A DNA stretch of 64,000 bases from contig NZ_JAGHQX010000008.1 of assembly GCF_017744095.1 (NCBI RefSeq), forward strand, positions 1-64,000, read 5' to 3'. The notes below the pieces were generated by a model. That model saw nothing but the letters and a program-made list of their open reading frames with translations, made no database searches and had not been told where the DNA came from. Positions 1,422 to 20,588 of the stretch are shown here, piece after piece. The position numbers and the translations under genes were made by a program. Source of the stretch: Shimia sp. R10_1 (GTDB lineage: Bacteria > Pseudomonadota > Alphaproteobacteria > Rhodobacterales > Rhodobacteraceae). Positions within the stretch are counted from its first letter, which is position 1, and each line of letters opens with the position of its first letter.

Positions 1422-2162
1422 ATGAAGAGGAGCCGAACGGCACGGGTACTATCCGCTGCCACGGCTAGAGATATGTCTAAAGATTACGACGACGATTTCT
1501 ATCGTCCTCCCGCACCCACCACGGCAGGACTCATGTTTCCTGCGCGCTCAAAATTCACTGTGCGCGGTTTTACTTTGGCCAAGACGCCCGCCGAAATGTA
1601 CTGGCGGCAGATTATTTCGGCCAGTCAACTTGAGCGGGTAACCTGCCTACTCGCACTGGCGGATCCCAAACTTTGGAACCTGCATGATCAGCCACGCCCC
1701 GTCAGCTATATTGACGGTTCAGGACGACAGCGTACTCATCGCTTCGATTATCTGGCAGAGCTCCGGGATGGATCGAGCGTGGCGATGGCGGTCAAGCCAG
1801 AAGAACGCGTCGAAAGGTTGAACTTCCGGGAAACGCTCGTCGCGATCCGCCGTGATCTGCCGATGGGATTTGCCGACAAAGTCTGCCTCATCACAGAGCA
1901 TAATCATCATCCAAAAGAAGTACAAAATGCGGAGCTTCTGAATTTCTTTCGGCGCTGTCCGGACGAGGAAGCCGATCTTTTGGTCGCTGAGCTTGTTTCG
2001 GGCCTCACAGGCGAACTCTCGATTAGTGAACTCACAAAGCCGCTGGGACTTGGTGCGCGCGGGTTCCGCGCGGCATTCCGAGCCATCTACGCGGGGCTTC
2101 TAAAGGCCAATACGCGTGAACTCATCTCTATCAACACAATCATTTTCCCAGGAAAGGGCTGA
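1422..2162 (+). CDS. tnsA: TnsA-like transposon end-cleaving endonuclease
   Basis: TnsA cuts the 5' ends of Tn7-type elements, complementing TnsB, so that transposition is cut-and-paste. The 246-residue protein has the TnsA signature: SQLER with E71 (equivalent of TnsA E63), then a 'QP..v.Y.d..g..r.hrFDYL' block with D109 (equivalent of D114), then AVKP with K125 (equivalent of K132). All three metal/active-site positions are therefore kept. The residue two before the lysine, Q in TnsA and usually E or Q in relatives, is A here. The C-terminal half has a helical, winged-helix-like look. The ATG at 1422 lacks a clear ribosome site; ATG 1473 (MSKDYDD) is the alternative. It ends two bases before the tnsB-like ATG, giving tight coupling. 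Confidence 0.8.
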   Translation: MKRSRTARVLSAATARDMSKDYDDDFYRPPAPTTAGLMFPARSKFTVRGFTLAKTPAEMYWRQIISASQLERVTCLLALADPKLWNLHDQPRPVSYIDGSGRQRTHRFDYLAELRDGSSVAMAVKPEERVERLNFRETLVAIRRDLPMGFADKVCLITEHNHHPKEVQNAELLNFFRRCPDEEADLLVAELVSGLTGELSISELTKPLGLGARGFRAAFRAIYAGLLKANTRELISINTIIFPGKG

Positions 2163-2164
2163 TC

Positions 2165-4375: not shown

Positions 4376-5363
4376 ACACAGCAGGAAGTTCCAGTCTGAC
4401 AAAGACGTCCGGAAAAAGGTGCAGAGCTTAAGAAAGCTCTACATCCCACGGCCAGAATTTGACAAGCTTGATGCGCGCTTTGGCAGCATCCTTGAGCAGC
4501 GTCGGGCAGATGAGGCTGATGGCGTCGTGTTCAAAGCCCGAAGCATAATGCTGGTGGGGCCATCCGGCAGCGGAAAAACCACCGCAGTTAGACAGCTCGT
4601 CCACAAATACGCACATCTGATGGCCGCGGACCCGGAGAAGGATATCTGTGAGTTTATTGGCCTACAGGTGCCCAGCCCGGCCACGATGAAGTTTGTTGGT
4701 GCCGCAACGCTGCGTGCGCTGGGATACCCGTATTCAGGCAACAAACAAGGCCCGGCAATCTGGGACCAAGTCAAAGAGCAACTCAAGCTTCGCCGGACGC
4801 TTTTTCTTGGGTTCGACGAGGCGCAGGATTTGGCCCGTTTCCAAACTGACAAAGAAAGACAATCTGTCGTCAATACTCTTAAATCGATGATGGAAAACTC
4901 CGTTTGGCCGGTTGGATTGCTGCTGTCCGGGATGCCAGACCTCAAGAAAATCGTAAATCAAGATGCACAGCTGGCGCGACGGGTTGATCCAATCCAAATC
5001 GGACGGCTGCATTCTCTGCGTGATGTCGAGCATGTCATCAAGATCGTACAAAGATATGCCGATCGGGCGCAGATCGATGTCGTGGCTTCGGTTAAGAATG
5101 AAGCCTTTGCCATGAGGCTCATGCACGCGGCGGACTATCAGTTTGGGCTCATGGCCGAGATCATTGTTTTGTCGGTGTCGCATGCATTGTTCACAGAAGG
5201 CTTCGAGGCAAAGCTGAGCATTCGGCATTTTGCAGAAGTCTATCGCGAGCGAAATGGCGCAGATGACTGGATGAACATCTTTGTCGCTGAGGACTATGGG
5301 CGCCTTAACCCGAGAAAACTCCTGGACGATAACGACAGTCCTGAAGATGGAGAAGATCCATGA
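4368..5363 (+). CDS. tnsC: TnsC/TniB-like AAA+ ATPase, transposition regulator
   Basis: This AAA+ ATPase links target selection to the transposase. Walker A is GPSGSGKTT (about residues 62-70) and Walker B is LFLGFDEAQD (about 145-154), followed by a sensor-like MENSVWPVGLLLSGMPDL segment, as in TniB/TnsC proteins. I use ATG 4368, preceded by GAGGAGAAGGG, giving 331 residues. The reading frame stays open to 4215 but that part lies inside tnsB and is not convincing protein. The stop overlaps the tniQ ATG as ATGA. TnsC proteins form ATP-dependent filaments on DNA that recruit TnsA/TnsB; here TniQ would nucleate them. Confidence 0.88.
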   Translation: MNKHSRKFQSDKDVRKKVQSLRKLYIPRPEFDKLDARFGSILEQRRADEADGVVFKARSIMLVGPSGSGKTTAVRQLVHKYAHLMAADPEKDICEFIGLQVPSPATMKFVGAATLRALGYPYSGNKQGPAIWDQVKEQLKLRRTLFLGFDEAQDLARFQTDKERQSVVNTLKSMMENSVWPVGLLLSGMPDLKKIVNQDAQLARRVDPIQIGRLHSLRDVEHVIKIVQRYADRAQIDVVASVKNEAFAMRLMHAADYQFGLMAEIIVLSVSHALFTEGFEAKLSIRHFAEVYRERNGADDWMNIFVAEDYGRLNPRKLLDDNDSPEDGEDP

Positions 5364-7150
5364 GTGTCCCGTTAACCCTTAGTCTTCCCCTCATCGAGGG
5401 GGAGACCCCGACAGGTTATGTCTCTCGATCGGCGCATTTCTATCGGACCACACCACGTGACTTCTGTTCAGACCTTGGTATGCGGTGGCCCTTTCTTTGC
5501 AGCGGTCGAGACGATCAAATTGAACGTTTGGCGTGGCTCATCGATGTTACGCCGTCGCGCCTGCAAGACTGGATCACACGAAAGATTGCCGTTGGCCGCT
5601 ATCAGGTCGCAAAAGCTTTCGCTAGCACGGGGGTGTTGCGGCGTACGGCGGTAAGGCTTTGTCCCCAATGCGTCGTTGAGGCATTAGATGAAAACGGGCC
5701 GTCTGGCATTTACCAGAGACTGGAATGGTCAGTGCTCTGTATCGAACGATGTGACCGGCACGGGTGCGCGCTCATATCGGTGCCTTCAACGCAGTATTCA
5801 CATTCCACATATGATTTTGTGTCTCGGGTCCTGGAGCACAAGGAAGTGGTTCTCAGAGCCAGTCAGAATGCACCCACGTTGCCAGCTTCGGCCTTTGAAA
5901 CCTACGTGCGTCGACGTCTGTCTCATGGGGCTGAGAAGGATTGGCTTCAGGACCTCGATTTAACCTATCTGCATCGCGCCAGCCTTTCCCTTGGCGCTGC
6001 GCTGTGTGGACAGACCAAAAATCGCTTGCGTGATCTTGACCCCAAAGACATGCACGAACTCGCAGGCGTTGGTTTTGACCGTTTGATCGCTGGGCCAGAG
6101 GGCTACAAGACGGCTTTGGAAGAACTTCTGCGGGCGAGTTCTGCGGAAAAGCCTTTTTATACAACTGACCTTGGTCCTCACTATTTTTGGCTCCGGGAAG
6201 TCTTCAAGGACCCTGAAATGGGGACCATGATCGACATAATGAGAGACCATGTGTTTGCAGTGTACCCGGTGCCCACCGACAAACAGGTGTTTGGAAAAAG
6301 TCCGCAGAAACGGGAATTGCTTACCATCGAGGAGGCACGCAAGCGCACAGGGCTGGGGGCGGTCACGCTCAAATTGATGCTTGGGTATCTTGAAGGCATA
6401 CCGAAAGAAGAGGTTTTGAAACGCACCGAAATTTCTGCAGAGGAGACCCAAAGGGTGCGCGTATTTAAGGCCAAGTTAGCCACATTTGCCGAAGTGACGA
6501 AACAACTTGGTATTTTTCCTGAGCAGTTGAAAGCGCTGCAGAACCTGGGCGCTCTCACCACGCTCAAGCTGTTGTCATCCCGACGCTATCTCTTTCGTGC
6601 AGAAGTGGCTCAGTTGCTTGCTGATGTCGCGGCCTTGCCAGCGTCTCTTCCAGGCAAGTCTACGGCGCCCTTGAGAGAGTTTTGCCGTGTCAGGGGGATT
6701 CCTTTGGCGCGTGTTATCTCCATGTGGAAACAGGGCGAACTGAACGGGGCTCTCTGTGCCGGAATGGGAGACGGTTTGCATGCTATTGAAATTGACTGGG
6801 ATGCGGTGTGCGACAGCAAAGCTGTTGACCAAGCGCGCGACCTGACGTTGCCCGAAACCGCGCGCCACCTTCAGATCAATGTAGGCTCCATTCGTTCGCT
6901 AAGAGACAACGGCTATTTGCGCGAGGTTTTGCATCAAAACCCCGACACCAATCGTGCAAAAACCTACATTGCCTTGTCGAGCATTCAGCAGTTCCAATCA
7001 AGATATGTTACGCTTGGGCAGATGGCGCTACGCCAGAAGATGGCAGCGATCCATTTGGCGCGACGGCTGGATCGTGAGGATGTGCCTCCGGTCAATTGTG
7101 GTGAGAGGCTGGTCCGCGTTTACGACAAGCGCTTGGTGCATTGGGAGTGA
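5360..7150 (+). CDS. tniQ: TniQ/TnsD-like target-site selector
   Basis: The N-terminus has the TniQ pattern (LPLIEGETPTGYVSRSAHFY) and a zinc-binding CPQC (about residues 96-99) followed by a second pair in CDRHGC (about 131-136). At 596 residues it is long for TniQ and closer to the TnsD type, which carries extra C-terminal DNA-binding domains and reads a fixed attachment sequence. Two HTH-like stretches are visible, one starting near TIEEARKRTGLGAVTL and one at LPETARHLQINVGSIRSL. I infer sequence-specific targeting to a chromosomal site. No Cascade or Cas12 genes are near, so there is no sign of guide-RNA targeting. It overlaps tnsC by ATGA. Confidence 0.85.
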   Translation: MSVPLTLSLPLIEGETPTGYVSRSAHFYRTTPRDFCSDLGMRWPFLCSGRDDQIERLAWLIDVTPSRLQDWITRKIAVGRYQVAKAFASTGVLRRTAVRLCPQCVVEALDENGPSGIYQRLEWSVLCIERCDRHGCALISVPSTQYSHSTYDFVSRVLEHKEVVLRASQNAPTLPASAFETYVRRRLSHGAEKDWLQDLDLTYLHRASLSLGAALCGQTKNRLRDLDPKDMHELAGVGFDRLIAGPEGYKTALEELLRASSAEKPFYTTDLGPHYFWLREVFKDPEMGTMIDIMRDHVFAVYPVPTDKQVFGKSPQKRELLTIEEARKRTGLGAVTLKLMLGYLEGIPKEEVLKRTEISAEETQRVRVFKAKLATFAEVTKQLGIFPEQLKALQNLGALTTLKLLSSRRYLFRAEVAQLLADVAALPASLPGKSTAPLREFCRVRGIPLARVISMWKQGELNGALCAGMGDGLHAIEIDWDAVCDSKAVDQARDLTLPETARHLQINVGSIRSLRDNGYLREVLHQNPDTNRAKTYIALSSIQQFQSRYVTLGQMALRQKMAAIHLARRLDREDVPPVNCGERLVRVYDKRLVHWE

Positions 7151-7683: not shown

Positions 7684-8095
7684 GGATGGCTCAACTGCCA
7701 GCATAAATAGGTAGCGTACTCAACCAGAGATCGCTTCACATAAAACCCGTTCAGAGACGTTCTCGGTTTGTTACAAAACCGACAAACATCCAGTGGTTGC
7801 AGAAATTTGCAATTGGAGATTCTTGGCGGATGGTATCAACAAACTGCATCCCCCAAACGCATAGCATTTCAACCTGTCATAACTCTGTGACAATCTCTTC
7901 CGGCTCGCGTCGCTTGAAGCACTCGTTCGATCCTTCGTTTCCTGACTTTAGGGCCGGATGAACTCAAAGAGGTAGGATTGCTCACAATCGCCAACTGGAT
8001 GTATTCGCTGGTTATTGCTTTCTTTCTTGTTAGGGTGCAGCCGTTGCAGAATTAAATCTGCATTTGTTTTACACAGCGTTTGTTGGAGCTGACTT
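7684..8095. other. Gene-free gap ahead of the biosynthetic operon
   Basis: These 412 bases hold no convincing frame. They separate the lower-GC transposition module from the GC-rich operon and must carry the operon promoter, since all seven genes downstream are coupled. The only structured site I see is the inverted repeat at 7875-7892. Confidence 0.6.
7875..7892. promoter_or_regulatory. Inverted repeat TGTCA-N8-TGACA, candidate operator
   Basis: A perfect 5-base inverted repeat with an 8-base centre, about 200 bases upstream of the HMG-CoA-reductase-like start. The size and symmetry fit a dimeric repressor or activator site. No matching regulator is encoded in the operon. TGTCA/TGACA is also typical of Tn7/Tn5053-type transposon termini, so a relic of an end is an alternative. 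Confidence 0.3.
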
Positions 8096-9361
8096 TTGAT
8101 TATTCCATTTCATGTGCGAGAGATGCTTCGGCGCATAAAGGCGCGGTATGATGTTGAACGCACGCCCCAACAGATGGCCCCGAATGACGAAGGGTTTTCG
8201 CCTTTGCGCCCGTCTCGCACCGCAGACAACAAGACGGTGGCGCGGTTCTGGGATCATCTGAAACCCACGGCAAGCGATGCGGATCAGGCGCTGATCGCGG
8301 ATCCGGCGGCGGTTGACGCTTCTGAAACCTACAGCGCGAATATCGAAAACTATATCGGCACCGTGAAAGTGCCGGTTGGCGTCGTTGGACCATTGCGGTT
8401 GAACGGTATGAACGCCAACGGGGATTTCTATGTGCCTCTGGCAACGACCGAGGCTGCTCTGGTCGCCTCTTACGCGCGCGGGGCCTATGCTGCGGGTCGC
8501 TCGGGAGGGGTCAGCACCGCCGTGCTGTACGAAGGTGTCCTGCGCACGCCCGCCTTTGTGTTCGAAGGCCTGTTGCAGGCCGGACAGTTCGTTGATTGGG
8601 TGGTCAGCAATATCGAGGATTTGCGCGCCGCGGCCGAGGCCACGACCCGGCACGGCAAGCTTGTCTCGGTCGAGCCATTCATCGACACCAATATCGTGTT
8701 CCTGATTTGCCGCTACACGACCGGGGACGCAGCGGGCCAGAATATGGTGACCATTGCCACGGATGCCCTGTGCTATGCGATCGTCGATCATTGCCCGATA
8801 CCCATGGAAAACTGGTATATCGAGGGAAATTTTTCAGGCGACAAAAAGGCCTCGGCGCTTGGGTTGGTGACAGGGCGTGGCCGGAAGGTCAGCGCGTCGG
8901 TCACCTTGCCTGCAGATGTCGTTGAAAAGTCGCTTGGAACGAGTGTAGACGCCATGCTGGCCTATGGGCGGGTCGCCAATCTGGGCGCGCATCTGTCGGG
9001 TCAGCTGGGGGCGCAGGCCCATTATGCCAACGGGCTTGCGGCCTTTTACATCGCCACCGGGCAGGACGCGGCCTGCGTCGCCGAAAGCGCGATGGGCGTT
9101 ACGCGGATGGAGCCCAAAGGGGATGATCTTTTCTGCTCGGTCACGCTGCCGAACATTCTGGTGGGGTCCGTGGGCGGCGGCACCGGTCTGCCCAGCCAGA
9201 GTGCAGCGCTGAACATCCTGGGGCTCAAGGGCGCGGGCCATGGGACGGCGTTGGCCGAAGTGGCCGCAGCCATTTGCCTGTGCGGAGAGATTTCGATTGT
9301 CGCCGCAATCGCTGCGGGCCATTTCACCCGCGCCCATGAAAGCCTGGCCCGCCAAAGATGA
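8096..9361 (+). CDS. HMG-CoA reductase-like enzyme (orphan, first gene of biosynthetic operon)
   Basis: HMG-CoA reductase family: four-electron NAD(P)H reduction of an acyl-CoA thioester to an alcohol. All four catalytic positions of the family are present: E119 (LATTEAALVAS), K250 (SGDKKA), D324 (ATGQDAA) and H414 (AGHFTRAH). Other signatures are ENYIG...VPVGVVGPL (84-100) and GGGTGLPSQ (360-368). The usual DAMGMNM loop is DAAGQNM here. At 421 residues without membrane domains it is a soluble enzyme. I use a TTG start at 8096 because GGAG lies 9 bases before it; ATG 8123 is the alternative. No HMG-CoA synthase or mevalonate kinase is in the window, so the substrate may not be HMG-CoA. It overlaps the next gene by ATGA. 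Confidence 0.85.
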   Translation: MIIPFHVREMLRRIKARYDVERTPQQMAPNDEGFSPLRPSRTADNKTVARFWDHLKPTASDADQALIADPAAVDASETYSANIENYIGTVKVPVGVVGPLRLNGMNANGDFYVPLATTEAALVASYARGAYAAGRSGGVSTAVLYEGVLRTPAFVFEGLLQAGQFVDWVVSNIEDLRAAAEATTRHGKLVSVEPFIDTNIVFLICRYTTGDAAGQNMVTIATDALCYAIVDHCPIPMENWYIEGNFSGDKKASALGLVTGRGRKVSASVTLPADVVEKSLGTSVDAMLAYGRVANLGAHLSGQLGAQAHYANGLAAFYIATGQDAACVAESAMGVTRMEPKGDDLFCSVTLPNILVGSVGGGTGLPSQSAALNILGLKGAGHGTALAEVAAAICLCGEISIVAAIAAGHFTRAHESLARQR

Positions 9362-10269
9362 ATGTGCTGGCGCGATTGTGGATCTATCAGGCCGAACGGT
9401 TTCCGTTGAAAAAGACCGTTCCGCTGTTGCTGGTGTTTTCGGCGGCCAGCATCTGTGTCTCGGCCCGGCTTTCGGATCGCCCGTTACCCGAATGGCCCGG
9501 GTTTCTGGTTGGATTTGTGCTGGCCATGGCGCTGTTTTTCCAGATGCGCGTTTGCGACGAGTTCAAGGATGCCGAAGACGACCGCCGCTATCGGCCCGAA
9601 CGTCCCATTCCTCGCGGGCTGGTTTCCCCGACCGAGGTTCTGGTGCTGGGCCTGCTGACCCTGCCGGTGGCTGCCGCCGCTGCATGGCTCTGGTCCCCGC
9701 TGGTTCTGTGGTGCCTTGTGGGGGTTTGGGTCTGGCTGGCGGCGATGACTGCTGAATTCGGCGCGCCCGCATGGCTCAAGGCGCGGCCGGTGCTTTATCT
9801 GGTCAGCCATATGGCCATCATGCCGCTGATCGACCTGCTGCTGACCAGCATCGAATGGCTTCCCGCCGGAGGGGCCGCGCCACAGCTTTGGTTGTTCCTG
9901 GTGCTGTCCTTCGTCAATGGCTGCGTTCTTGAGATCGGGCGCAAGCTCTGGTCGCCCGAAAACGAAATTGATGGGGTCGATACCTATTCGGGCCTGTGGG
10001 GATACCGCCGCGCTGCCCTGATTTGGCTGTGTTGTGTTGGCCTGTCTTTTGTCTTTCTGGTGGGGACAGGGTTTGCGACGGGCGTGGGCTGGTTCACGGT
10101 TGCGGTTGGGGCCGTTGCGCTGTTGCCCTGCGGTCTGGCCGCGCGCAGCTATGTCAAGGCGCCGACCCCCGGTGCGCAGGACAGAATGGATACGATCGCC
10201 GGGCTTTGGGTGTTCTTTTGCTATGCCACAGCGGGCTTTTTGCCGTTTCTGATTGGAGCTTTCAGATGA
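9358..10269 (+). CDS. UbiA-family prenyltransferase-like membrane protein
   Basis: A polytopic 303-residue protein with the two UbiA signatures. The first Asp-rich motif is CDEFKDAEDD followed by PERPIPRG (about residues 64-84). The second region is EIGRKLWSP...EIDGVDTYSGLWGY (about 185-215). Such proteins transfer a prenyl chain from a polyprenyl diphosphate to an acceptor at the inner membrane. The acceptor cannot be read from sequence; the motif style is that of the UbiA family at large, not of a single known enzyme. It overlaps both neighbours by ATGA. Confidence 0.82.
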   Translation: MNVLARLWIYQAERFPLKKTVPLLLVFSAASICVSARLSDRPLPEWPGFLVGFVLAMALFFQMRVCDEFKDAEDDRRYRPERPIPRGLVSPTEVLVLGLLTLPVAAAAAWLWSPLVLWCLVGVWVWLAAMTAEFGAPAWLKARPVLYLVSHMAIMPLIDLLLTSIEWLPAGGAAPQLWLFLVLSFVNGCVLEIGRKLWSPENEIDGVDTYSGLWGYRRAALIWLCCVGLSFVFLVGTGFATGVGWFTVAVGAVALLPCGLAARSYVKAPTPGAQDRMDTIAGLWVFFCYATAGFLPFLIGAFR

Positions 10270-12728
10270 CCCTTATCGTCAGCCAATCCGATGCCACGGA
10301 CCCGAGCCAGGTCGGAGGCAAAGCCGCCGCGCTGTCGAATCTGGCCCGCCATGGCTTCAACTCGCCTGCGTTTTTTGTCATCACCGACGCCGCGTTTCGC
10401 AAAGGCAAGTCGGGGCCGGTCGCGGCCCGTGGGCTGAAAGGCGCGCTGGATGCTGCGTTGGATGCGCTGGGTCCGGGGCCGTATGCGGTGCGCAGTTCCG
10501 GTCGGGCCGAAGACGGGGCAGACCACAGCCATGCAGGTCAGTTCGACACGGTTCTGAACGTCTCAGGCGGAAACGTGTTGGGGGCGGCGAAACGGGTATG
10601 GCAATCCGGGTTCGCAGAGACAGTCGCCACCTATCGCGCCGTCAAAACCGGGGGCGCGGCAGAGGCCCCGGCGATCATTGTTCAGCGCATGATTGATGCA
10701 ACGGCGGCTGGTGTCGCGTTCTCGGCTGATCCCGTGACCGGGCAACGGAACACGGTGATTGTGTCCGCCGTCAAAGGTCTGGGCGATGCGCTGGTGGCGG
10801 GGGAGGTTGATGGGGAGGATTGGACCATTGGCCAAAATGGGCGCCCCGAATGCGCGCATGCGACGCCTCAGATCCTGACCCCGGATCATGCGCTTCGGGT
10901 CGCAGCGCTGGCGCGACAGGCAGAAGAGGCTTGTGGCACACCGCAAGACATCGAATGGGCGTTTGATGCGGATGGTCTGCATATTCTTCAGACGCGGCCG
11001 ATCACAACCGCATTGCGGCCCGCGGCATTGCCGGATGAGTCGCTGACCATTTTCGACAATTCCAACATCGTCGAAAGCTATCCGGGCATGGTCAGCCCGC
11101 TGACCTATTCCTTTGCCGTGCATGTCTACGGGCGGGTCTATCGTGCCTTTGTGCGGCTGTTGGGCGTGTCAGACAAAGCCGTCGCGCGGCACGGGGCCCT
11201 TTTCGACAACTTCCTGGGGCGCATTGACGGGCGGGTTTATTACAATCTGGTCAATTGGTACCGCGCGTTGGCGTTGTTGCCAGGGTTTTCGCTGAATCGC
11301 GACTATATGGAGACGATGATGGGTGTGTCCGAACCCATGCCGTCTGAAATCACCGATCAGATCGGGCCGCCGCCCGCCAAAGGGGCGCGCAAGATATGGG
11401 AATACGCGAAACTGGCTGGGGTTGCGTGCGGCCTGATATGGCAGGCCCTGCGTTTGCCGCGCACCCGGCGCAATTTCTACAACAGGCTGAATGATGTTCT
11501 GGATCGTGATCTGGACATCGAAACGGCGAATGCGACCGAGTTGGCCGCTGAATACCGCGAAATCGAAAGCACTTTGCTGGATCGCTGGGACGCCCCGCTG
11601 GTCAACGATTTCCTGTGCATGATCGCCTTTGGCGCATCGCGCAACCTGCTGCACAAGTGGCTGGGGGAAGATGGGCTGGCGCTGCATAACGATGTCATGA
11701 TTGGTCAGGGGGACATCGTCTCGGCGGAACCGGCGCAGCGTATTGCCCGGATGGCGCATATGGTCCGCGACGCAGGGATTGCGGATCATCTCAGCGCTGA
11801 TTGCCGGTTGGAAACCCTGGACCCTTACCCCCCGATCAAAGACGAGGTCCAATCTTATCTGGATAAATTCGGCGACCGATGCACCGAAGAGCTGAAGCTG
11901 GAAAGCATACCGCTGCGCGACGACCCCTCGAGCCTGTTGATGGCGGTTGCAGCCAGTGCTGCCCGACCCGAAAGCGCACGGCACACGGGCCGTGAACCGG
12001 ACTGGACATCCCTGTTCCCCGCCAACCCTGTGAAACGCCATCTGTCCAAATGGATCGTGGGCTGGGCCAAAGCCCGTGTCCGGGACCGAGAGAACCTGCG
12101 GTTTGAACGCACGCGCATCTTTGGCCATGCCCGACGTGTTTTCCTAGGGATCGGGCGCGAGTTTGCGGCACGGGGGCTGTTGGCCGAACCCCGTGATGTG
12201 TTTCACCTGACAACGCATGAGGTTCTGGGGGCCGTCGAAGGGTTCAGCCTGTCCCCGGACCTCAAAGCCATTGTCGCGCAACGCCAACGCGAAGATCGTG
12301 CATCGTCGGAACGCCCCGACCCGCCGGAACGCATCGAAATCCGGGGGCCTGCCATTGCGCCGATCTGGGCGGCTGCCGAACTACCCGAGGGCGATGGGGA
12401 ACGGGTGAAGACCGGCACGGGCTGTTCGGCCGGACAGGTTACCGCCAAGGCCCGCGTGATCCGTGACCCACGCACCGAGGCATTGCAGCTCGGCGACATC
12501 CTTGTTGCAAGGCACACAGACCCGGGCTGGATTGCGGTGTTTTCGAATGCCTCGGCCATCGTTGTTGAACGGGGCTCCTTGCTGTCTCATTCCGCCATTG
12601 TGGCGCGAGAGTTGGGCATTCCCTGTGTCGTCGGCCTGAAAGGCGCGACGCAGTGGATCAGGGATGGCGAAACGCTTTCGGTTGATGGGGTGAGCGGCAA
12701 AGTGGAACGGTGCGATGAGGCAGAGTGA
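10266..12728 (+). CDS. PEP-synthase/rifampin-phosphotransferase-like dikinase
   Basis: An 820-residue protein with the N-terminal ATP-grasp domain of PEP synthase/PPDK (GGKAAALSNLARHGF at the start, AVRSSGRAEDG, then IEWAFD...LHILQTRPI near residue 240). A long unassigned middle is followed by a C-terminal swivelling phosphohistidine domain (GSLLSHSAIVARELGIP, H775). The PEP/pyruvate TIM barrel is not evident. The order resembles rifampin phosphotransferase, where ATP's beta-phosphate is passed via the histidine to a hydroxyl of a small molecule. I infer phosphorylation of a pathway intermediate. The true start is ATG 10266 (ATGA overlap with the UbiA gene); the longer open frame from 9996 lies in the UbiA gene and is a shadow. 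It overlaps the next gene by 14 bases. Confidence 0.83.
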   Translation: MTLIVSQSDATDPSQVGGKAAALSNLARHGFNSPAFFVITDAAFRKGKSGPVAARGLKGALDAALDALGPGPYAVRSSGRAEDGADHSHAGQFDTVLNVSGGNVLGAAKRVWQSGFAETVATYRAVKTGGAAEAPAIIVQRMIDATAAGVAFSADPVTGQRNTVIVSAVKGLGDALVAGEVDGEDWTIGQNGRPECAHATPQILTPDHALRVAALARQAEEACGTPQDIEWAFDADGLHILQTRPITTALRPAALPDESLTIFDNSNIVESYPGMVSPLTYSFAVHVYGRVYRAFVRLLGVSDKAVARHGALFDNFLGRIDGRVYYNLVNWYRALALLPGFSLNRDYMETMMGVSEPMPSEITDQIGPPPAKGARKIWEYAKLAGVACGLIWQALRLPRTRRNFYNRLNDVLDRDLDIETANATELAAEYREIESTLLDRWDAPLVNDFLCMIAFGASRNLLHKWLGEDGLALHNDVMIGQGDIVSAEPAQRIARMAHMVRDAGIADHLSADCRLETLDPYPPIKDEVQSYLDKFGDRCTEELKLESIPLRDDPSSLLMAVAASAARPESARHTGREPDWTSLFPANPVKRHLSKWIVGWAKARVRDRENLRFERTRIFGHARRVFLGIGREFAARGLLAEPRDVFHLTTHEVLGAVEGFSLSPDLKAIVAQRQREDRASSERPDPPERIEIRGPAIAPIWAAAELPEGDGERVKTGTGCSAGQVTAKARVIRDPRTEALQLGDILVARHTDPGWIAVFSNASAIVVERGSLLSHSAIVARELGIPCVVGLKGATQWIRDGETLSVDGVSGKVERCDEAE

Positions 12729-13815
12729 AATCGAATCCAAGGCAGATTTCGACCACATCCGATACGCGCAATTGTGGGAGGACGCGGATGTTCTGACCGC
12801 ATCGCTGGGCGATTGTGCGGGTGGCACGCTGGTTTCCATCTGTTCAGCCGGGGATAACGCGCTGGCGATGCTGACGCTGGACCCGGCCAAAGTTGTGGTT
12901 GTCGATTTGTCCCCGGCGCAGATCGCCTGTTTGAAGCTGAGGATAGGCGCGTACCAGACCCTGACACACCCTGAATTTCTGGAACTGACCGGCTCGCGCT
13001 CCAGCAGCCGGCGCGCTGATTTGCTGTCACGCGCGCTGGGGGAGACCGACCCGGATACGCGCGCCTTTTGGATCGCGCTTACCCCTGAGGTCGTGCGCTA
13101 TGGGATCGGTGGGGTCGGCAAGTTCGAACGGTATTTCCGCATCTTCCGTACCCGGCTATTGCCGTTCGTTCATTCCAGAAAAACGATTGACGATGTCTTT
13201 GCGCCGCGCTCCCCCAAGGCGCGCGAAGTCTTCTTTGACACGCGCTTTGATACCTTCCGGTGGCGGTTGCTGTTGAACCTGTTCTTCTCTCGGTTCGTCA
13301 TGGGCCGCATGGGGCGGGACAAGGCGTTTTTTGATCACGTAGAAGGCAGCCCGGCCCAGCATGTGGCGCGTCGTATTCGCCATGCGGGCGTTGATACGGA
13401 CCCGTCGCAAAACCCCTATCTGCACTGGATTTTGAAAGGCACGCATGGCGATGCCTTGCCGATGGCCTGGCGGCCCGAACACTATGACACGATCCGCGAC
13501 CGTTTGGATCGTCTGGATATCCGTCCGGGATCGCTGGAGGCATTTGTCTCGACCGGTGAAAAGGCCAACGGGTTCAACCTGTCTGACATTTTTGAATATA
13601 TGTCGCCTGACATGTTTGAAACGGTTTACGGCTCGATCCTGTCCGCCGCCGCGCCCAATGCCCGCCTGGTCTATTGGAACATGATGGCCCCGCGCCGTGT
13701 GCCAGCCCGTTACCAGAGCAAAGTGGAAACCCTTCGGGCGGTTGAGGATAAGCAGAAAACCCGCGATATGGCCTTTTTCTATTCGGACTTCGTTGTGGAA
13801 CAGGTGCGTGCATGA
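12715..13815 (+). CDS. BtaA/DUF3419-like SAM:3-amino-3-carboxypropyl transferase
   Basis: DUF3419/BtaA family: BtaA moves the 3-amino-3-carboxypropyl group of S-adenosylmethionine onto diacylglycerol to make diacylglyceryl-homoserine, the first step of betaine lipids. Visible signatures are IRYAQLWEDADVL near the N-terminus and the nucleotide-binding SICSAGDNALAML (about residues 40-52), then VDLSPAQ. The 366 residues are close to usual BtaA length. No BtaB-type N-methyltransferase accompanies it, so a betaine lipid is not the obvious product. Here it may alkylate another hydroxyl, such as one made by the reductase-like enzyme. It overlaps the next gene by ATGA. Confidence 0.82.
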   Translation: MRQSEIESKADFDHIRYAQLWEDADVLTASLGDCAGGTLVSICSAGDNALAMLTLDPAKVVVVDLSPAQIACLKLRIGAYQTLTHPEFLELTGSRSSSRRADLLSRALGETDPDTRAFWIALTPEVVRYGIGGVGKFERYFRIFRTRLLPFVHSRKTIDDVFAPRSPKAREVFFDTRFDTFRWRLLLNLFFSRFVMGRMGRDKAFFDHVEGSPAQHVARRIRHAGVDTDPSQNPYLHWILKGTHGDALPMAWRPEHYDTIRDRLDRLDIRPGSLEAFVSTGEKANGFNLSDIFEYMSPDMFETVYGSILSAAAPNARLVYWNMMAPRRVPARYQSKVETLRAVEDKQKTRDMAFFYSDFVVEQVRA

Positions 13816-15143
13816 GCGTTGCGGCCCAGATCCTGTTGGCTGTGATGTCCGTTCTGACCTTGCTGGGGTTGATGGCAGTAGTCCGGCGGCTGGCGCAAAA
13901 GGTCGGACTCAGCGGCGAAGTGCAACGGAAACTGATGCACGTCGGCACCGGGCTGTTTGCCATGCTGCTGCCGTGGATTTTCCCGGATCGCTGGCCGGTC
14001 TACATGCTGATCGGGGCGACAATGATCGTGATGCTGGTCTTGCGTTTGCCCCGTTTCTCAAAAGGTCTGGGGGCCGCCATTCACAGCGTCGAGCGGACGT
14101 CATACGGGGATTTCCTGTTGGCGCTTTCGGTGGGGCTTTGTTTCTTGCTGGCCGGTGAAAATACGCTCTACTACGTGCTGCCGATCGCTGTTCTGACGCT
14201 GGCCGATGCCGCAGCCGCATTGGCCGGGACCACCTATGGCACCAAACGCTATGTGGTCGAAGATGGCGACAAAAGCCTGGAAGGTTCGGTGGTGTTTTTC
14301 GTCGTAGCGTTGTTGGTTGCGATCATCTGTTTCCTGTTTTTGTCAAAACTGCCGCCGTCCAACATTATGATGCTGTGCCTGATGATTGCCGGTTTCGGCA
14401 CCCTGGTCGAGGCGCAAAGCTGGCGTGGCTTTGACAACCTGTTCCTGCCGCTTGGCTTGTTGATTTTCCTGAAAACCCACTATCACAGCTCCTTGGCGGA
14501 ACTGGCGGTGCTTGCCATTTTGTTCTTTGCCGCGTTGGTCAGTTTTGGCGTGGTGGGAACCCGGCTGGGCCTCAGCAAACACACGACCCGCGTGTATGTC
14601 GTTGCGGTTTTTCTGATGCTGGCCGCCGCAAAAATGCAAAACACGGTCCTGCCAATCCTGGTGCTTGCCGCACATGGCTGGGCGCGCACTGCGTCTCCGT
14701 GTGACAGCAAGTATCCTGATCTGGATATCGTGGCTGCCTTGGGCATTTTGGGTTTTGGTTGGCTTGCGGTGGGCAATGCGACGGGCTGGGATGCGATATC
14801 CATTTTCGGCCTCAGCGCCATGGGGTTGGCCATGGGGCTTTGCGCTGTGGCGTTGCGGGGCATACCTGTTGCGATACCGCTTGCGGCCGCTGTCCTGTTT
14901 CTGATCCGTATCTGGGTCGTTTCGCTGAACGCGGACCATTCGAACTGGGCCGAGCCTTTGACGGCTTTGTCGCTTGTCACTCTTGCCGTGACGGCGATTG
15001 TTCCTTTGGCGTTTCCGGATGTGTTTCAAAAGAACCGGGTGTCGCGGCTCACGCTCTTGGCGCTGCTGCTGCCGCTGACCTATTACATCTGGTCCATAGC
15101 CGGGGGTATCAGCGCCCGGATCGCTGACGGAGTTATTTCATGA
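13812..15143 (+). CDS. Polyprenol/phytol kinase-like (CDP-alcohol/dolichol kinase superfamily) membrane protein
   Basis: A very hydrophobic 443-residue protein. Its N-terminal half has the dolichol/phytol-kinase signatures RKLMHVGTG, LTLADAAAALAGTTYG and KSLEGS; members use CTP to phosphorylate lipid alcohols such as dolichol, phytol or diacylglycerol. The C-terminal half adds another block of roughly seven to eight membrane segments of unknown role, making it about twice the size of a simple phytol kinase. In this operon it would phosphorylate an isoprenoid or lipid alcohol, perhaps to feed the UbiA-like enzyme. It overlaps both neighbours by ATGA. Confidence 0.75.
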   Translation: MSVAAQILLAVMSVLTLLGLMAVVRRLAQKVGLSGEVQRKLMHVGTGLFAMLLPWIFPDRWPVYMLIGATMIVMLVLRLPRFSKGLGAAIHSVERTSYGDFLLALSVGLCFLLAGENTLYYVLPIAVLTLADAAAALAGTTYGTKRYVVEDGDKSLEGSVVFFVVALLVAIICFLFLSKLPPSNIMMLCLMIAGFGTLVEAQSWRGFDNLFLPLGLLIFLKTHYHSSLAELAVLAILFFAALVSFGVVGTRLGLSKHTTRVYVVAVFLMLAAAKMQNTVLPILVLAAHGWARTASPCDSKYPDLDIVAALGILGFGWLAVGNATGWDAISIFGLSAMGLAMGLCAVALRGIPVAIPLAAAVLFLIRIWVVSLNADHSNWAEPLTALSLVTLAVTAIVPLAFPDVFQKNRVSRLTLLALLLPLTYYIWSIAGGISARIADGVIS

Positions 15144-15985
15144 CGCAGGAAAGCATTCGTACCGACGGTGCCAAACTGGCCCTGTATCTGCAGGGCCCTG
15201 AATGGGATGGTGTGCCCGCGGCAACCATCGGTGACTTCTCATGCAAAACGCCCGAGGCCGGTTTGCACGCCCTGCATCAGGCCATCGAACGGGTCCGCAG
15301 CGCGGGGATTGACCGGATCATCGGTCCGATGTCCGGGGATACCTGGCACAGCTACCGGTTTGTCTCGGAAAGCGACGGATCGGCCCCGTTTCTGATGGAG
15401 CCGACGAACAAGTCACATGATCCCGACGTGTTCAAGGGGGCGGGTTTTGCGCCCATCAGCAGCTATTTCTCGGCGCGCGTTCCTTTGGCACAAACGGCCA
15501 GTTCGTCCTTGGCGGCAAGTGATGCGTTCACGGTCGAACCCTGGGACGGGACTGATCCCGAAGGTTTGTTCCGGCAGGTCTATCATCTGTCGGTCGAGGC
15601 GTTCGCGCAAAACGCGTTCTACAAACCCATCTCTGAAAGCGACTTTCTGGCGATGTACATGCCCGTCGTTCCGATGCTGAAGCGCGAGTTGATCTTTTTC
15701 GCGCGCCGCACGGACGGGTCATTGGCGGGTTTTCTGTTTGGCATCCCGAACTATGCAGAAGGCCCGAAACCCAAAGCCGCGATCCTGAAAACCTATGCCA
15801 GCCTTGAGCGGGGCGCAGGGCGCCACTTGGCCAGTCATTTCCATCAATCCGCCTTGGATCTGGGTTTTGACACGGCAATCCACGCGTTGATTCACGATGA
15901 CAACCAATCAGCAGAGCGCAGCAGTGTTGAAGGGGGCACTGTGTTCCGGCGATATGCTCTGTATGGGCTGCGTCTGGATGGCTAA
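15140..15985 (+). CDS. GNAT-superfamily-like acyltransferase
   Basis: A 281-residue protein with the fold features of GNAT proteins: an N-terminal segment with GPMSGDTWHSYRF, a substrate side with MEPTNKSHD, and a C-terminal stretch KTYASLERGAGRHLASHFHQ that looks like the acetyl-CoA pyrophosphate loop region, then LDLGFDTAIHALIHDDN. I infer N-acylation of an amine. In this operon the amine could be the one placed by the BtaA-like enzyme. The start overlaps the previous stop by ATGA, and the end overlaps the ligase start by 8 bases. Family assignment is less certain than for the neighbours. Confidence 0.65.
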   Translation: MTQESIRTDGAKLALYLQGPEWDGVPAATIGDFSCKTPEAGLHALHQAIERVRSAGIDRIIGPMSGDTWHSYRFVSESDGSAPFLMEPTNKSHDPDVFKGAGFAPISSYFSARVPLAQTASSSLAASDAFTVEPWDGTDPEGLFRQVYHLSVEAFAQNAFYKPISESDFLAMYMPVVPMLKRELIFFARRTDGSLAGFLFGIPNYAEGPKPKAAILKTYASLERGAGRHLASHFHQSALDLGFDTAIHALIHDDNQSAERSSVEGGTVFRRYALYGLRLDG

Positions 15986-17399
15986 CCTGCTGGACCATTT
16001 TGCCGACGCGGTCGCGCGGCACCCGGACCGGACGGCCATTGTTGAGGGCAATGGTCGCGAGGTTAGATTCCGGGACGTGCAGACACGCGTGCAGCAATTG
16101 GCCAGCAAGTGGGCGCGCAAAGGTCTGCGCCATGGCGACCGGGTTCTGCTGGCCATGCCCGTCAACGCGGATCTTTATGCCAGCCTTGCCGCCTTGTGGT
16201 CCTTGGGGGTCACGGTCGTTCTGCCCGAGCCTGCGATGGGTCTGGCCGGGTTGCGTCACGCGGCAAGAACAACCTTGCCCAAGGCGTTCTGCGCATCGGG
16301 TTACTTTGCGCTGCTCAGCTTTGTGGTGCCGGAGCTTTGGGGGCTGCCGCTGTTACGGCCGGGCCAAGGGCAAGGCGAACCCGATGTCGTGGATGTCCAA
16401 GACAGTGATGTAGCGCTTATATCCTTTACATCCGGAACCACAGGTCAGGCCAAGGCCATCCCGCGCAGCCACGCGTTTCTGATGGCCCAGCATGACGCCA
16501 TCGCACCGCTTCTGGACAGTGACACGGCCGAGCGCGATCTGGTCGCGTTTCCGGTCTTTACCCTGATCAACCTAGCGGCCGGACGCACGACAGTTTTGCC
16601 GAACTGGAAGATGACCAAGCTGGATCACCTATCGCCCGATGGGTTGGCGGGCTGGATAACGAAGCAAAAGGTCACGCGGCTTTTGATCCCGCCGTCCCTG
16701 TGTGAAAAGCTCACGCAGTGCCAAGATACCGGCCAATTGCATACCGTCTTTACCGGCGGCGGTCCTGTCTTTCCCGACCTGACCCAAAGGCTGCTCAAAC
16801 GGCCCGGCCTGGATGTAGTCTGCGTTTATGGCTCTACCGAGGCGGAACCGATTGCGCATCTTGATGCGCGCGACATCTCGGACCTTGATCATCGTGACAT
16901 GGCGGCGGGCAGGGGGCTTTTGGTCGGACGCCCCGTTTCGCACATCAACCTCCGAATCCGAGACGACGAGGTTCAGGTGGCAGGAAATCACGTCAATGAC
17001 GGCTATCTTGATCCAGCGCATTCCAGGGAAAACAAAATCAAGGACGGCACGACGATCTGGCATCGAACCGGCGACGCGGGTCAGTTGGATGAACAGGGGC
17101 GTTTGTGGCTGTTGGGACGATTGGGAAGTGATGTGAAAACCCCAACCAGACGCATCTTTCCCTTTGCCATTGAAATCGCTGCCAGCCAATGGCCGGGTGT
17201 GACGAACAGCGCGCTGATGAGCCTGAACGAGCGCCCCGTTTTGTGCGTCGAAGGGGATGCGGACAAGTTGCCAAACTGGAATAGGCTGGCGCAGGAGTTC
17301 GGCGTTGCCAAAGTGACCCACGTGAAAAAAATCCCCTTGGACAAACGCCACAGATCCAAGATTGACCGAGTGGAACTTGCTCACTTCTTGGGGTATTGA
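15978..17399 (+). CDS. AMP-forming acyl-CoA/acyl-AMP ligase (OleC-like)
   Basis: ANL-superfamily adenylating enzyme, 473 residues from ATG 15978 (the overlapping ATGGCTAA is the start/stop junction with the previous gene; an open frame back to 15897 lies inside it). The core P-loop is FTSGTTGQAKA (150-160). Later motifs are VYGSTEAEP, WHRTGDAGQLDEQGRLWLLGR and a C-terminal lysine in KIPLDKRHRSKID. The region FPVFTLINLAAG after the P-loop resembles OleC-type ligases acting on long-chain hydroxy acids. It would activate a carboxylate for the pathway, for instance to supply the reductase-like enzyme with a thioester. It is the last gene of the operon; no terminator is evident after it. Confidence 0.82.
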   Translation: MANLLDHFADAVARHPDRTAIVEGNGREVRFRDVQTRVQQLASKWARKGLRHGDRVLLAMPVNADLYASLAALWSLGVTVVLPEPAMGLAGLRHAARTTLPKAFCASGYFALLSFVVPELWGLPLLRPGQGQGEPDVVDVQDSDVALISFTSGTTGQAKAIPRSHAFLMAQHDAIAPLLDSDTAERDLVAFPVFTLINLAAGRTTVLPNWKMTKLDHLSPDGLAGWITKQKVTRLLIPPSLCEKLTQCQDTGQLHTVFTGGGPVFPDLTQRLLKRPGLDVVCVYGSTEAEPIAHLDARDISDLDHRDMAAGRGLLVGRPVSHINLRIRDDEVQVAGNHVNDGYLDPAHSRENKIKDGTTIWHRTGDAGQLDEQGRLWLLGRLGSDVKTPTRRIFPFAIEIAASQWPGVTNSALMSLNERPVLCVEGDADKLPNWNRLAQEFGVAKVTHVKKIPLDKRHRSKIDRVELAHFLGY

Positions 17400-18251
17400 T
17401 CTACAGTACTTTTCCCTTGAGTGTTCTCACGGAAAACCACAATTGAGTACGGTGTTGTTTTTGCCCGCTGGCCAAGCAGCAGAAAAGTCCGGCAACCTGT
17501 GGAAAGCAATTGCCAGCATAGCTGCGCGCCACATGAATGACCATTTCTCCCGCTGCAAGCTGGCAATCTAAGCTGCGAGAAAAAATCCAAGGGCAGTTTG
17601 GGCTCGTCAAATTTTTTTTGGGTGGATGAGAGGCTGATCGACCTGGGTCAGAAATGCTTGACGTTTGGGTCAGAATTGAATGACGCGATTTGCAGATTTA
17701 TTGAGGTTTTGGCTGTCAATTGAGTTAAACATTAGTGACGTTCCACACAACTTGTTGTGAGACGACACATAGTTCTGTCATTTGCGACAGCACCTTTCCA
17801 TTCTTATTGCTCGATGTTGAACCTCACATGACGTTGACCTTTGTGTCATAAACTGACGCAACATCTCCATTTTGCTCCCGCAGACTGTTTCGATTGATCT
17901 GACTTCCCTTTTCGGAAAATCAGGGCTGATTTGTAGGTTCAGTCGGCGCGCGCAAATTGGGGGACGTGGGCACTGTGTCTCTCGTCGTTCAATGATGCGA
18001 TGGAGGATCTGCCCTCATGTTTTTGCGACTTATGGTTGCGTGGGGTGATGAGCAGTTGCTGCTTGGGTTTTGGAGAGCAAATTCCGGGTCCTTTCTCCGC
18101 TGGCTGAGCAACCGTAAAGCCCCGCCATTTTGAACCGAATTTTGCCCGACTGAGTGCGGTGCGGGGGGCGTTTCTTTAGGTTTTGTTAGCGTGTCAAACC
18201 TAGGTGCAGCGCTGGATTAACCAATCATTCGGTCAAAAAGAAAGCAAAGAC
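17400..18251. other. Long gene-free gap; possible far end of the Tn7-like element
   Basis: These 852 bases hold no convincing gene. The first half contains the TGACG-ended repeats described separately. Composition changes here from the GC-rich operon to AT-richer DNA and then to backbone. It is where a Tn7-like element with the 8.1-17.4 kb operon as cargo would be expected to end. Confidence 0.5.
17645..17858 (+). repeat. Cluster of same-orientation TGACG-ended repeats
   Basis: GGGTCAGAAATGCTTGACG (17645-17663) and GGGTCAGAATTGAATGACG (17667-17685) match at 16 of 19 positions with a 22-base period. A degenerate third copy is at 17722-17740 (12 of 19). Two further TGACG cores lie at 17829 and 17854, so five TGACG fall in about 200 bases, all on the same strand. 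Arrays of roughly 20-22-base transposase sites are typical of Tn7-like ends. IS21-family ends also have internal repeats, so an IS remnant is possible. No terminus or target duplication was found. Confidence 0.45.
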
Positions 18252-19060: not shown

Positions 19061-20464
19061 TTAAGGCATCTGCGAGATCTCTTTGGCCTGCAGCCAGACG
19101 CCGCCTTCTGGGCGCAGGGTCAGGATCATCACGGGTTTGGGGGCGCGCCCCGGGATGGGGGCGAAGTGAAACCGGCGCAGTAGGCTGGCGAGGATGATCA
19201 CCGCCTCCTGAATGGCAAAGCTGGCCCCGATGCAAATGCGCGGCCCATCGCCAAAGGGCAGATAGGCATAGCGGTCTATGGTCTTGCGGTCGACAAAGCG
19301 GTCTGGATCAAAGGCGTCCGGATTGTCCCACAGTTGGTGGTGGCGCCCCAACGCATAGATCGGGATCATGACGGTGTCGCCGGGGCGGATCTCGCGGGCG
19401 CAGAGCGTGTCATGCCGCTGTGCCGTGCGGGAAATGATCCCGGCAGGCGGATAGAGGCGCAGCGTTTCATCGACGATCTGTCGGATATAGGTGAGTTGGG
19501 GTACATGATCGCCGGTGATCGGGGTATCTCCGCAGATTTTTGCGATCTCTGCGCGGGCTTTGGTCTGCACGTCTTGGTCGAAGGCGCAAAGATAGAGCGC
19601 CCAAGCCAGCGTCAAGGCGGTGGTTTCATGGCCCGCGACGATGAAGGTCAGCAGGTTGTCGCGAAGCTCGGCTGTGTTCATACGTTTGCGGGTTTCGGGA
19701 TCTTCGCCCGCCAGAAGCAGATCCAGCAGGTCGGGCGTGTCTTTGGCGCCTCGGATGCGGCGCGCCTCAATGGCGTCATCGGCGACCTGTTTCATGTCTT
19801 TCATGGCATGGCCGGTGCGCAGGCGGCTGGGGCGGGGCACCCAATCGGGCACCCCCAACATGTCGAGCAGAGAGATTTTGCCAGCTTCGGCGATATAGGC
19901 GTCTATCGCATTGTGCACGGCGCCGCTGTCAAAGCTGCCATCGCCGGAGAAGGTGACTTCTGAGATCACGTCAAAGGTGGTTTTGACCATCTCATCCATC
20001 AGATCGACGGCGCGGCCAGAGGCGGATTGGATGCGATCGCCAGCACGGTCAGCCGCGTCTGCCATGACGGGTGCGAGGTTGGCGATATTGCGATGGGTGA
20101 ACACAGGGGCCGCGGCGCGGCGTTGCCAGCGCCAATGGGCGCCTTCGGCAATAAACAGGCTGTCGCCAATCGCGGGGCGCAGGATGTTTTTGGTGGCTTT
20201 GGACTTGGGGTAATCGTCGACCTTTTCCAAAAGCATCTGCCGGATGGCACCGGGATCCATCACCATATGCCAGCGCAGGCCGGTGCGGCCCGTCAACATG
20301 GGCTGGCGCGTGGCGATGTCTGGGATGATGGAGAGCAGGTTGCTGCGCGCAGCTTTCAGGGAGCGCCACAGGCCGAGGGGCTCTGTCACCAACGGGGCCC
20401 GTACGGGCAGGGCAGGCGCGGAGGCGGGCTTGGCCCGCGCAGAAGGGGGGATATCATCAGGCAT
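19061..20464 (-). CDS. Cytochrome P450
   Basis: Haem-thiolate monooxygenase, 467 residues. The I-helix oxygen-binding motif AGHETT is at 277-282, the K-helix ExxR is ETLR at 333-336, and the haem loop FGDGPRICIG is at 404-413 with ligand C411. No membrane anchor or fused reductase is visible, so it needs separate electron carriers, none of which lie nearby. I start at ATG 20464, preceded by AAGGAT; the frame is open to 20539 but the extra residues look unlike a P450. It is divergent from the lipoprotein gene. The substrate is unknown; the general shape is of the CYP102/CYP4-like bacterial group with PERF-like FDPDRF. Confidence 0.9.
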   Translation of the reverse strand: MPDDIPPSARAKPASAPALPVRAPLVTEPLGLWRSLKAARSNLLSIIPDIATRQPMLTGRTGLRWHMVMDPGAIRQMLLEKVDDYPKSKATKNILRPAIGDSLFIAEGAHWRWQRRAAAPVFTHRNIANLAPVMADAADRAGDRIQSASGRAVDLMDEMVKTTFDVISEVTFSGDGSFDSGAVHNAIDAYIAEAGKISLLDMLGVPDWVPRPSRLRTGHAMKDMKQVADDAIEARRIRGAKDTPDLLDLLLAGEDPETRKRMNTAELRDNLLTFIVAGHETTALTLAWALYLCAFDQDVQTKARAEIAKICGDTPITGDHVPQLTYIRQIVDETLRLYPPAGIISRTAQRHDTLCAREIRPGDTVMIPIYALGRHHQLWDNPDAFDPDRFVDRKTIDRYAYLPFGDGPRICIGASFAIQEAVIILASLLRRFHFAPIPGRAPKPVMILTLRPEGGVWLQAKEISQMP

Positions 20465-20588
20465 CTTGATCCTTATACGCAGAAGAGTAGGCGCAGGATC
20501 AGTGCAAAGAAAGGCCAAGATTGCGCGGGCGCTGGGCATGGGCTATGTCATCACCCAATCAGAATGAAGAGCAGTGGGAACAGCTTAC

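Follow-up and report, generated by a model that had tools for sequence, protein, structure and literature searches.

The DNA analysed here (the window) is a stretch of 64,000 nucleotides from Shimia sp. R10_1 (contig NZ_JAGHQX010000008.1, positions 1 to 64,000). In its list of open reading frames (ORFs), the plus strand at 8096-17399 holds seven overlapping ORFs, the first of which encodes a paralog of 3-hydroxy-3-methylglutaryl-CoA (HMG-CoA) reductase, abbreviated HMGR below. The same seven genes recur in related genomes, and their HMGR has kept all catalytic residues but has exchanged two contacts to HMG.

Gene content and layout of the operon

The genes of the operon are the following:

8096..9361, plus strand: gene 1, class I HMG-CoA reductase paralog with altered HMG-binding residues (PF00368, 368 bits)
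9358..10269, plus strand: gene 2, UbiA-family membrane prenyltransferase (PF01040, 57 bits)
10263..12728, plus strand: gene 3, ATP-grasp and phosphohistidine enzyme (PF01326, 150 bits; PF00391, 90 bits)
12715..13815, plus strand: gene 4, DUF3419 or BtaA-like protein, presumed S-adenosylmethionine (SAM) 3-amino-3-carboxypropyltransferase (PF11899, 180 bits)
13812..15143, plus strand: gene 5, all-helical membrane protein with an N-terminal core presumably like that of polyprenol and phytol kinases
15140..15985, plus strand: gene 6, tandem GNAT acyltransferase (by predicted fold)
about 15978..17399, plus strand: gene 7, AMP-binding acyl ligase, OleC-like, nearest model PRK09274 (PF00501, 130 bits)

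Neighbouring genes overlap at all six junctions, by 4, 7, 14, 4, 4 and approximately 8 bases (the last with a gene 7 start near 15978), and the seven genes are presumably co-transcribed. Six of them were placed by family or fold and gene 5 by motif resemblance only. Most of the family names proposed in the preliminary description, which had been made from the sequence alone, were retained, the GNAT by its fold and the kinase by motif only. The start codon of gene 1 in the window is TTG, and the script-chosen starts of 75 orthologs comprise 38 ATG, 21 TTG, and 16 GTG codons. The ORF of gene 3 opens at 9996, with ATG 10263 as the conserved start. The ORF of gene 7 opens at 15897; a start near 15978 is likelier because 32 of the 79 orthologs have a stop in this frame upstream of residue 28 of the window ORF.

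Conservation and distribution of the seven genes

Using the DUF3419 protein as bait, we compared 81 related loci (numbered with an L), namely the best 80 of 139 relatives and a Roseinatronobacter plasmid copy, counted irrespective of kinship and obtained by a search that finds close relatives only. All seven genes are present in the same order and on the same strand in 77 of these loci, and the remaining four (L027, L060, L078, and L082) are interrupted by contig ends. Among the 77 loci, four have one gene covered to less than 70%, in L010, L035, and L041 at the end of the stretch and in L087 with a fragmented gene. Overlaps between adjacent genes occur in most loci, for example between genes 1 and 2 in 71/79 and between genes 4 and 5 in 76/80.

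With gene 5 as bait, a match was present in 18 of 295 genomes of the family, including that of the window; 14 of the other 17 loci hold all seven genes, and the other three are interrupted by contig ends. This check is independent in its bait rather than in its genomes, as several of the 17 loci lie in genomes that also supplied DUF3419 loci and one query (L090) is itself among the 17 (as L180, 100%). The gene set and its order are not due to chance. The preliminary description had treated the seven genes as one unit and proposed a search for the same order elsewhere; the overlapping plus-strand ORFs and the 77/81 and 14/17 complete loci bear out the unit and refute the possibility of a non-conserved order. 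We conclude with high confidence that the seven genes form one biosynthetic unit, and its completeness wherever the contig allowed points to a single product.

The operon is scattered among marine and soil bacteria, with host genera that include Ruegeria, Roseovarius, Yoonia, Paracoccus, Roseinatronobacter, Bosea, Rhizobium, Devosia, Chelativorans, and Hyphomicrobium. Named strains of Ruegeria, Roseovarius, and Yoonia are among the hosts, for example Roseovarius nubinhibens ISM (L015). Within the genus of the window genome, the operon-type HMGR was found in this genome only (1/25), and the HMGR of two other genomes has a score like that of the copy from the mevalonate cluster described below. 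In the phylum, 34 of 398 genomes gave a match to the HMGR profile, and the operon was not found around the 18 HMGR matches inspected, which come from 17 of the other 33 genomes (one stretch spans just 4.6 kb); the 16 genomes left out of this check have matches of 230-238 bits (three genomes) or at most 35 bits (13 genomes). The profile of the gene 6 GNAT matched 9 of 349 genomes, eight of them weakly.

Plasmid pSCL4 of Streptomyces clavuligerus was considered as a version of the operon and rejected, its gene 3 homolog being 33.6% identical and the neighborhood different. The small cluster that holds this homolog (L150, 13030-18407) also encodes an AfsA-related protein and a member of the isoprenylcysteine methyltransferase family.

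Altered substrate pocket of the HMG-CoA reductase paralog

The HMGR sequence of the window was aligned with 75 of the 79 orthologs (partial ones were left out), giving 76 sequences, and was also compared with solved HMGRs. Human residue numbers were assigned via the Arabidopsis chain 7uli, whose numbering matches that of PMC9500038 at Ser390 and Lys441. The catalytic residues Glu559, Lys691, Asp767, and His866 are kept in 76/76 sequences, and so are Ser565, Arg568, Arg590, Asn686, Asp690, Lys692, His752, and Asn755. Two positions of the HMG-binding site are replaced with equal uniformity:

8822..8824, plus strand: codon of Glu243, which corresponds to human Ser684 (AtHMG1 Ser390), an HMG contact; Glu in 76/76
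8975..8977, plus strand: codon of Ala294, which corresponds to human Lys735 (AtHMG1 Lys441), the salt-bridge partner of the HMG carboxylate; Ala in 76/76

According to PMC9500038, the lysine forms a salt bridge with the carboxylate of HMG, and the serine makes a polar contact. Both residues are retained in the five solved HMGR chains whose alignments were compared and in the mevalonate-cluster HMGR of the window genome. Gene 1 is therefore like a class I HMG-CoA reductase in its family and in all catalytic residues, and unlike one in the two HMG carboxylate contacts replaced throughout the aligned set. A changed reductase is fairly supported by this pattern, and judging from these residues the enzyme probably acts on a substrate other than HMG-CoA. 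We know of no enzyme of the HMGR fold with a non-HMG substrate.

Two groups of HMGRs that stand outside the operon were aligned to the same positions. The orphan enzymes of L132-L139, all from one genus (g312), are 47-53% identical to the operon enzymes and have lost Lys735; in their seven aligned rows the Ser684 position is acidic (Asp in six and Glu in one). No further operon gene was seen around them except for a weak gene 3 domain match in L139, and several of these genomes look like two-chromosome, Vibrio-like genomes. The orphan HMGRs of L140-L149 come from other Pseudomonadota, some with ORFs of about 514 aa and an extra N-terminal stretch. Lys735 is lost in their nine aligned rows (L146 was left out), the Ser684 position is variable, and no common neighborhood was seen except for similar genes beside L144 and L146.

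Relation of the operon to the mevalonate pathway

We surveyed isoprenoid pathway genes in 36 hosts, comprising the window genome and the hosts of 35 of the 81 loci, chosen for range (the completeness of these 35 genomes is not stated). A mevalonate-diphosphate decarboxylase (TIGR01240) was matched in the window genome only, leaving 35/36 hosts without one. Dxr was found in 31/36 hosts; the exceptions are the window genome and four hosts (those of L075, L076, L080, and L089) that may use DXR-II in its place, an enzyme treated in PMC3847144. A single HMGR was found in 34/36 hosts, which is therefore the operon copy. Because 35/36 hosts lack the decarboxylase and 31/36 have Dxr, the operon HMGR is apparently uncoupled from the mevalonate pathway and apparently no supplier of it. 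The preliminary description had listed gene 1 as an HMG-CoA reductase; this is corrected here in two respects, the apparent uncoupling from the mevalonate pathway and the change of two HMG-binding residues.

In the window genome, family searches located the decarboxylase on contig 3, in a mevalonate cluster (L091, 303-6801) with a second HMGR. Inspection by eye assigned the other ORFs of this cluster to two kinases, an HMG-CoA synthase, and a type 2 isomerase.

Domain, motif and fold evidence for genes 2 to 7

Gene 2 carries the Pfam UbiA domain and the first acidic motif, DE.KD...[DE], in 79/79 orthologs. In gene 3, PF01326 and PF00391 were the only domains found, the PF00391 match ends at residue 901/910, and the Pfam/NCBIfam scan did not detect a C-terminal phosphoenolpyruvate (PEP)/pyruvate-binding domain. 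Since no domain follows the phosphohistidine domain, gene 3 is not a complete PEP synthase. The phosphohistidine-region motif LLSHSAI is present in 77/79 orthologs. The same combination of ATP-grasp and phosphohistidine domains lacking a C-terminal PEP-binding domain is seen in Rph, RedH, and PigC, but the scores of gene 3 fall well short of the curated cut-offs for these models (RedH 280, PigC 269, and rifamycin phosphotransferase 261 bits). Its best match is the PRK06241 group, named PEP synthase (658 bits, against a cut-off of 883).

Gene 4 and its orthologs match PF11899 with 164-202 bits. A second DUF3419 copy with 367-380 bits was found in 6/19 hosts, and the two second copies compared with gene 4 (L211 and L214) were taken as canonical BtaA; two further rows of that comparison, L210 and L212, are wrong-frame ORFs and were excluded. 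The second copy of L211 is followed by an ORF read by eye as a methyltransferase, as expected of a BtaA-BtaB pair. The BtaA-like label given to gene 4 in the preliminary description is upheld by the DUF3419 family, shared with the betaine-lipid enzymes, and by an alignable SAM-site region. The protein is nevertheless distant from the presumed canonical enzymes: proteins of the gene 4 type are 22-26% identical to the second copies of L211 and L214 (23 and 26% for L211 with the two operon proteins compared), and unlike the BtaA/BtaB system the operon has no methyltransferase gene, no such family being found among the seven genes by Pfam and NCBIfam. No useful solved structure was matched by gene 4.

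Genes 5 and 6 matched no Pfam or NCBIfam model. The predicted structure of gene 5 is all-helical, with 16 helices of at least 16 residues, and its search against the Protein Data Bank returned no fold match. The N-terminal core of gene 5 (E..RK..H, D.AAAL.G...G, KS.EG...FF, DNL..P) is common to short membrane proteins that the family libraries leave unnamed; we take this core to be the signature of polyprenol, phytol, and dolichol kinases, an assignment that no library confirmed. The fold predicted for gene 6 (mean confidence, pLDDT, 91) matched the tandem GNAT 7q3a best in Foldseek (E 8.7e-13). Gene 7 matched PRK09274 best among the NCBIfam models (282 bits, cut-off 478) and reached 147 and 145 bits with the curated OleC models, far below their cut-offs of 850 and 900. 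The OleC label used previously is accordingly loose, and what stands is an OleC-like AMP ligase nearest to PRK09274.

Proposed pathway and alternative explanations

We infer the substrates, the order of steps, and the product from the families described above. The gene 7 ligase would convert a carboxylic acid other than HMG into a CoA ester, and the HMGR paralog would use two NAD(P)H to reduce this thioester to a primary alcohol. Gene 5, perhaps with gene 3, could then turn the alcohol into a phosphate or diphosphate, in the manner of VTE5 and VTE6 with phytol, and UbiA would carry out a prenyl transfer using either the activated alcohol or a prenyl diphosphate of the host. The BtaA-like protein would add a 3-amino-3-carboxypropyl group from SAM, and the GNAT would N-acylate the resulting amine. 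A precedent is the two-step phosphorylation of phytol by VTE5 and VTE6 before prenyl transfer, as given in PMC9515888. The operon shares with this salvage route to tocopherol an alcohol phosphorylation that feeds a UbiA-type transferase and the motif resemblance of gene 5; it differs in having no identified VTE6-like gene and in adding a reductase, a ligase, a BtaA-like protein, and a GNAT.

We give a nearly even chance to the operon producing, by the logic of these steps, a membrane lipid or a small lipid-like specialised metabolite. Somewhat more tentative is the proposal of a natural product or membrane lipid of a new class in which an HMGR fold reduces another acyl-CoA, the alcohol is phosphorylated for UbiA, and an aminocarboxypropyl group is N-acylated. 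The exact chain from acid to CoA ester, alcohol, phosphate, and UbiA is more doubtful still.

Several observations weigh against this proposal. The window genome does possess the mevalonate pathway. The orphan HMGRs of the two other groups also lack Lys735, and Arg590 and Lys692, likewise named as contacts, are kept in 76/76 sequences; residue swaps alone are no proof of a changed substrate. Gene 3 could be a PigC/RedH-like ligase instead of a kinase. The kinase role of gene 5 is a proposal from motif resemblance, since neither a named family nor a structural match was obtained.

Mevalonate could alternatively serve as a building block, as in the fusarinine siderophores of fungi, for which PMC3709128 describes the mevalonyl-CoA ligase SidI, the hydratase SidH, and the transferase SidF as a known trio. 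HMGR would then make mevalonate, the ligase would form mevalonyl-CoA or mevalonyl-AMP, and the GNAT would join the mevalonyl group to the BtaA-placed amine on a prenylated or lipid scaffold. Such a scheme accounts for an HMGR in hosts that lack the mevalonate pathway. SidF is GNAT-like, and OleC, near which gene 7 falls among named enzymes, acts on beta-hydroxy acids, of which mevalonate is one. The operon resembles the fungal system in a mevalonate-type precursor, an AMP ligase, and an acyltransferase (PMC3709128), but departs from it in its changed HMGR pocket, its added membrane enzymes, and the absence of a hydratase among the seven genes. The replacement of Ser684 by Glu and of Lys735 by Ala in 76/76 sequences would remove or repel the HMG carboxylate, and genes 2, 3, and 5 are left without a role. 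We regard this explanation as unlikely.

Less probable again is a sphingoid-like amino alcohol lipid, for which the carboxylate of the aminocarboxypropyl group would be activated by the ligase, reduced by the HMGR paralog with Glu243 binding the ammonium group, N-acylated by the GNAT, and phosphorylated. This scheme links the roles of genes 1, 4, 6, and 7 and fits both the acidic residue at the Ser684 position and the GNAT fold of gene 6, but it is purely inferred and leaves UbiA without a role.

Feeding of mevalonate into ordinary isoprenoid synthesis, which the PF00368 score of gene 1 and the mevalonate cluster of the Dxr-less window genome might suggest, is highly improbable and near refuted because of the decarboxylase, HMGR, and Dxr counts among the hosts, the more so as the mevalonate cluster has an HMGR of its own on another contig.

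Neighboring P450 and sulfotransferase genes

A sulfotransferase gene (PF13469) adjoins 17 loci, each of which also has a P450 of one group alongside (15 found by ORF clustering, and L023 and L034 added by tblastn). P450s of a second group, 77-88% identical to each other, adjoin six loci, four of them on the upstream side and two on the downstream side. The high identity of these P450s despite the change of side suggests that the second group is functionally linked to the operon. In some hosts, P450 and sulfotransferase enzymes may decorate the product.

The P450 gene of the window (19064-20539, minus strand) was rejected as a tailoring gene. Its identity to the operon-linked P450s does not exceed 31%, and it belongs to neither group; its stretch was matched in 25/25 genomes of the genus, 24 of which lack the operon HMGR. 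The NCBIfam models nearest to it are terpene monooxygenases, with scores far below the cut-off.

Mobility, flanks and base composition

Features around the operon are as follows:

7717..17747: mobile unit of about 10 kb, 91% DNA identity with the Ruegeria arenilitoris locus L011 (blastn)
2165-7150: Tn7-like genes for an integrase-core transposase, TniB, and TniQ
1422-7150: Tn7-like stretch including a weak TnsA-like N-terminus (PF08722, below cut-off)

In a blastn comparison of window positions 1-24000 with L011, the similarity ends at the borders of the mobile unit, and the flanks of L011, the locus most closely related to the window copy, carry unrelated genes. One copy of the operon resides on a 137-kb plasmid of Roseinatronobacter. 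The best explanation is that the operon is horizontally mobile and inherited as a complete set. No convincing terminal inverted repeats around the operon were seen among the 25 longest listed. Segments 1-128 and 17644-17948 of the window are repeated elsewhere in the genome with 87-100% identity, several near contig ends, and are perhaps parts of a multicopy element or of the surroundings of rRNA genes.

The preliminary description placed the operon directly behind a Tn7-like module. In the window the two do adjoin, the operon starting 0.9 kb behind the Tn7-like genes, but the module is not a conserved part: in about 5 kb upstream of each operon, the comparison with the 81 other loci gave one short TniQ-like stretch as its sole match (L012), on a strand without a long open frame there. 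The module was accordingly rejected as a functional part of the operon. The operon had also been described as richer in GC than its flanks, which is correct for the left side (0.51-0.55, versus 0.58-0.63 for 2-kb windows starting at 8-15 kb); on the right side the GC content drops to 0.525 (17-19 kb) and regains 0.57-0.61 at 18-23 kb.

Implications for the enzyme families involved

The statement in the preliminary description that no described pathway has this gene set agrees with our survey of the open-access literature, in which none was found as judged by titles and the starts of abstracts, with longer result lists covered in part. The individual families are known, whereas their combination and the altered HMGR are undescribed as far as checked. 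HMGR, the target of statins, is among the best-studied enzymes, and the operon enzymes form a family of it in which the catalytic residues are kept and two carboxylate contacts are swapped in all 76 aligned members. If the proposed substrate change is true, gene 1 would be, to our knowledge, the first enzyme of the HMGR fold with a non-HMG substrate, and the BtaA and UbiA families would gain a new kind of partner.

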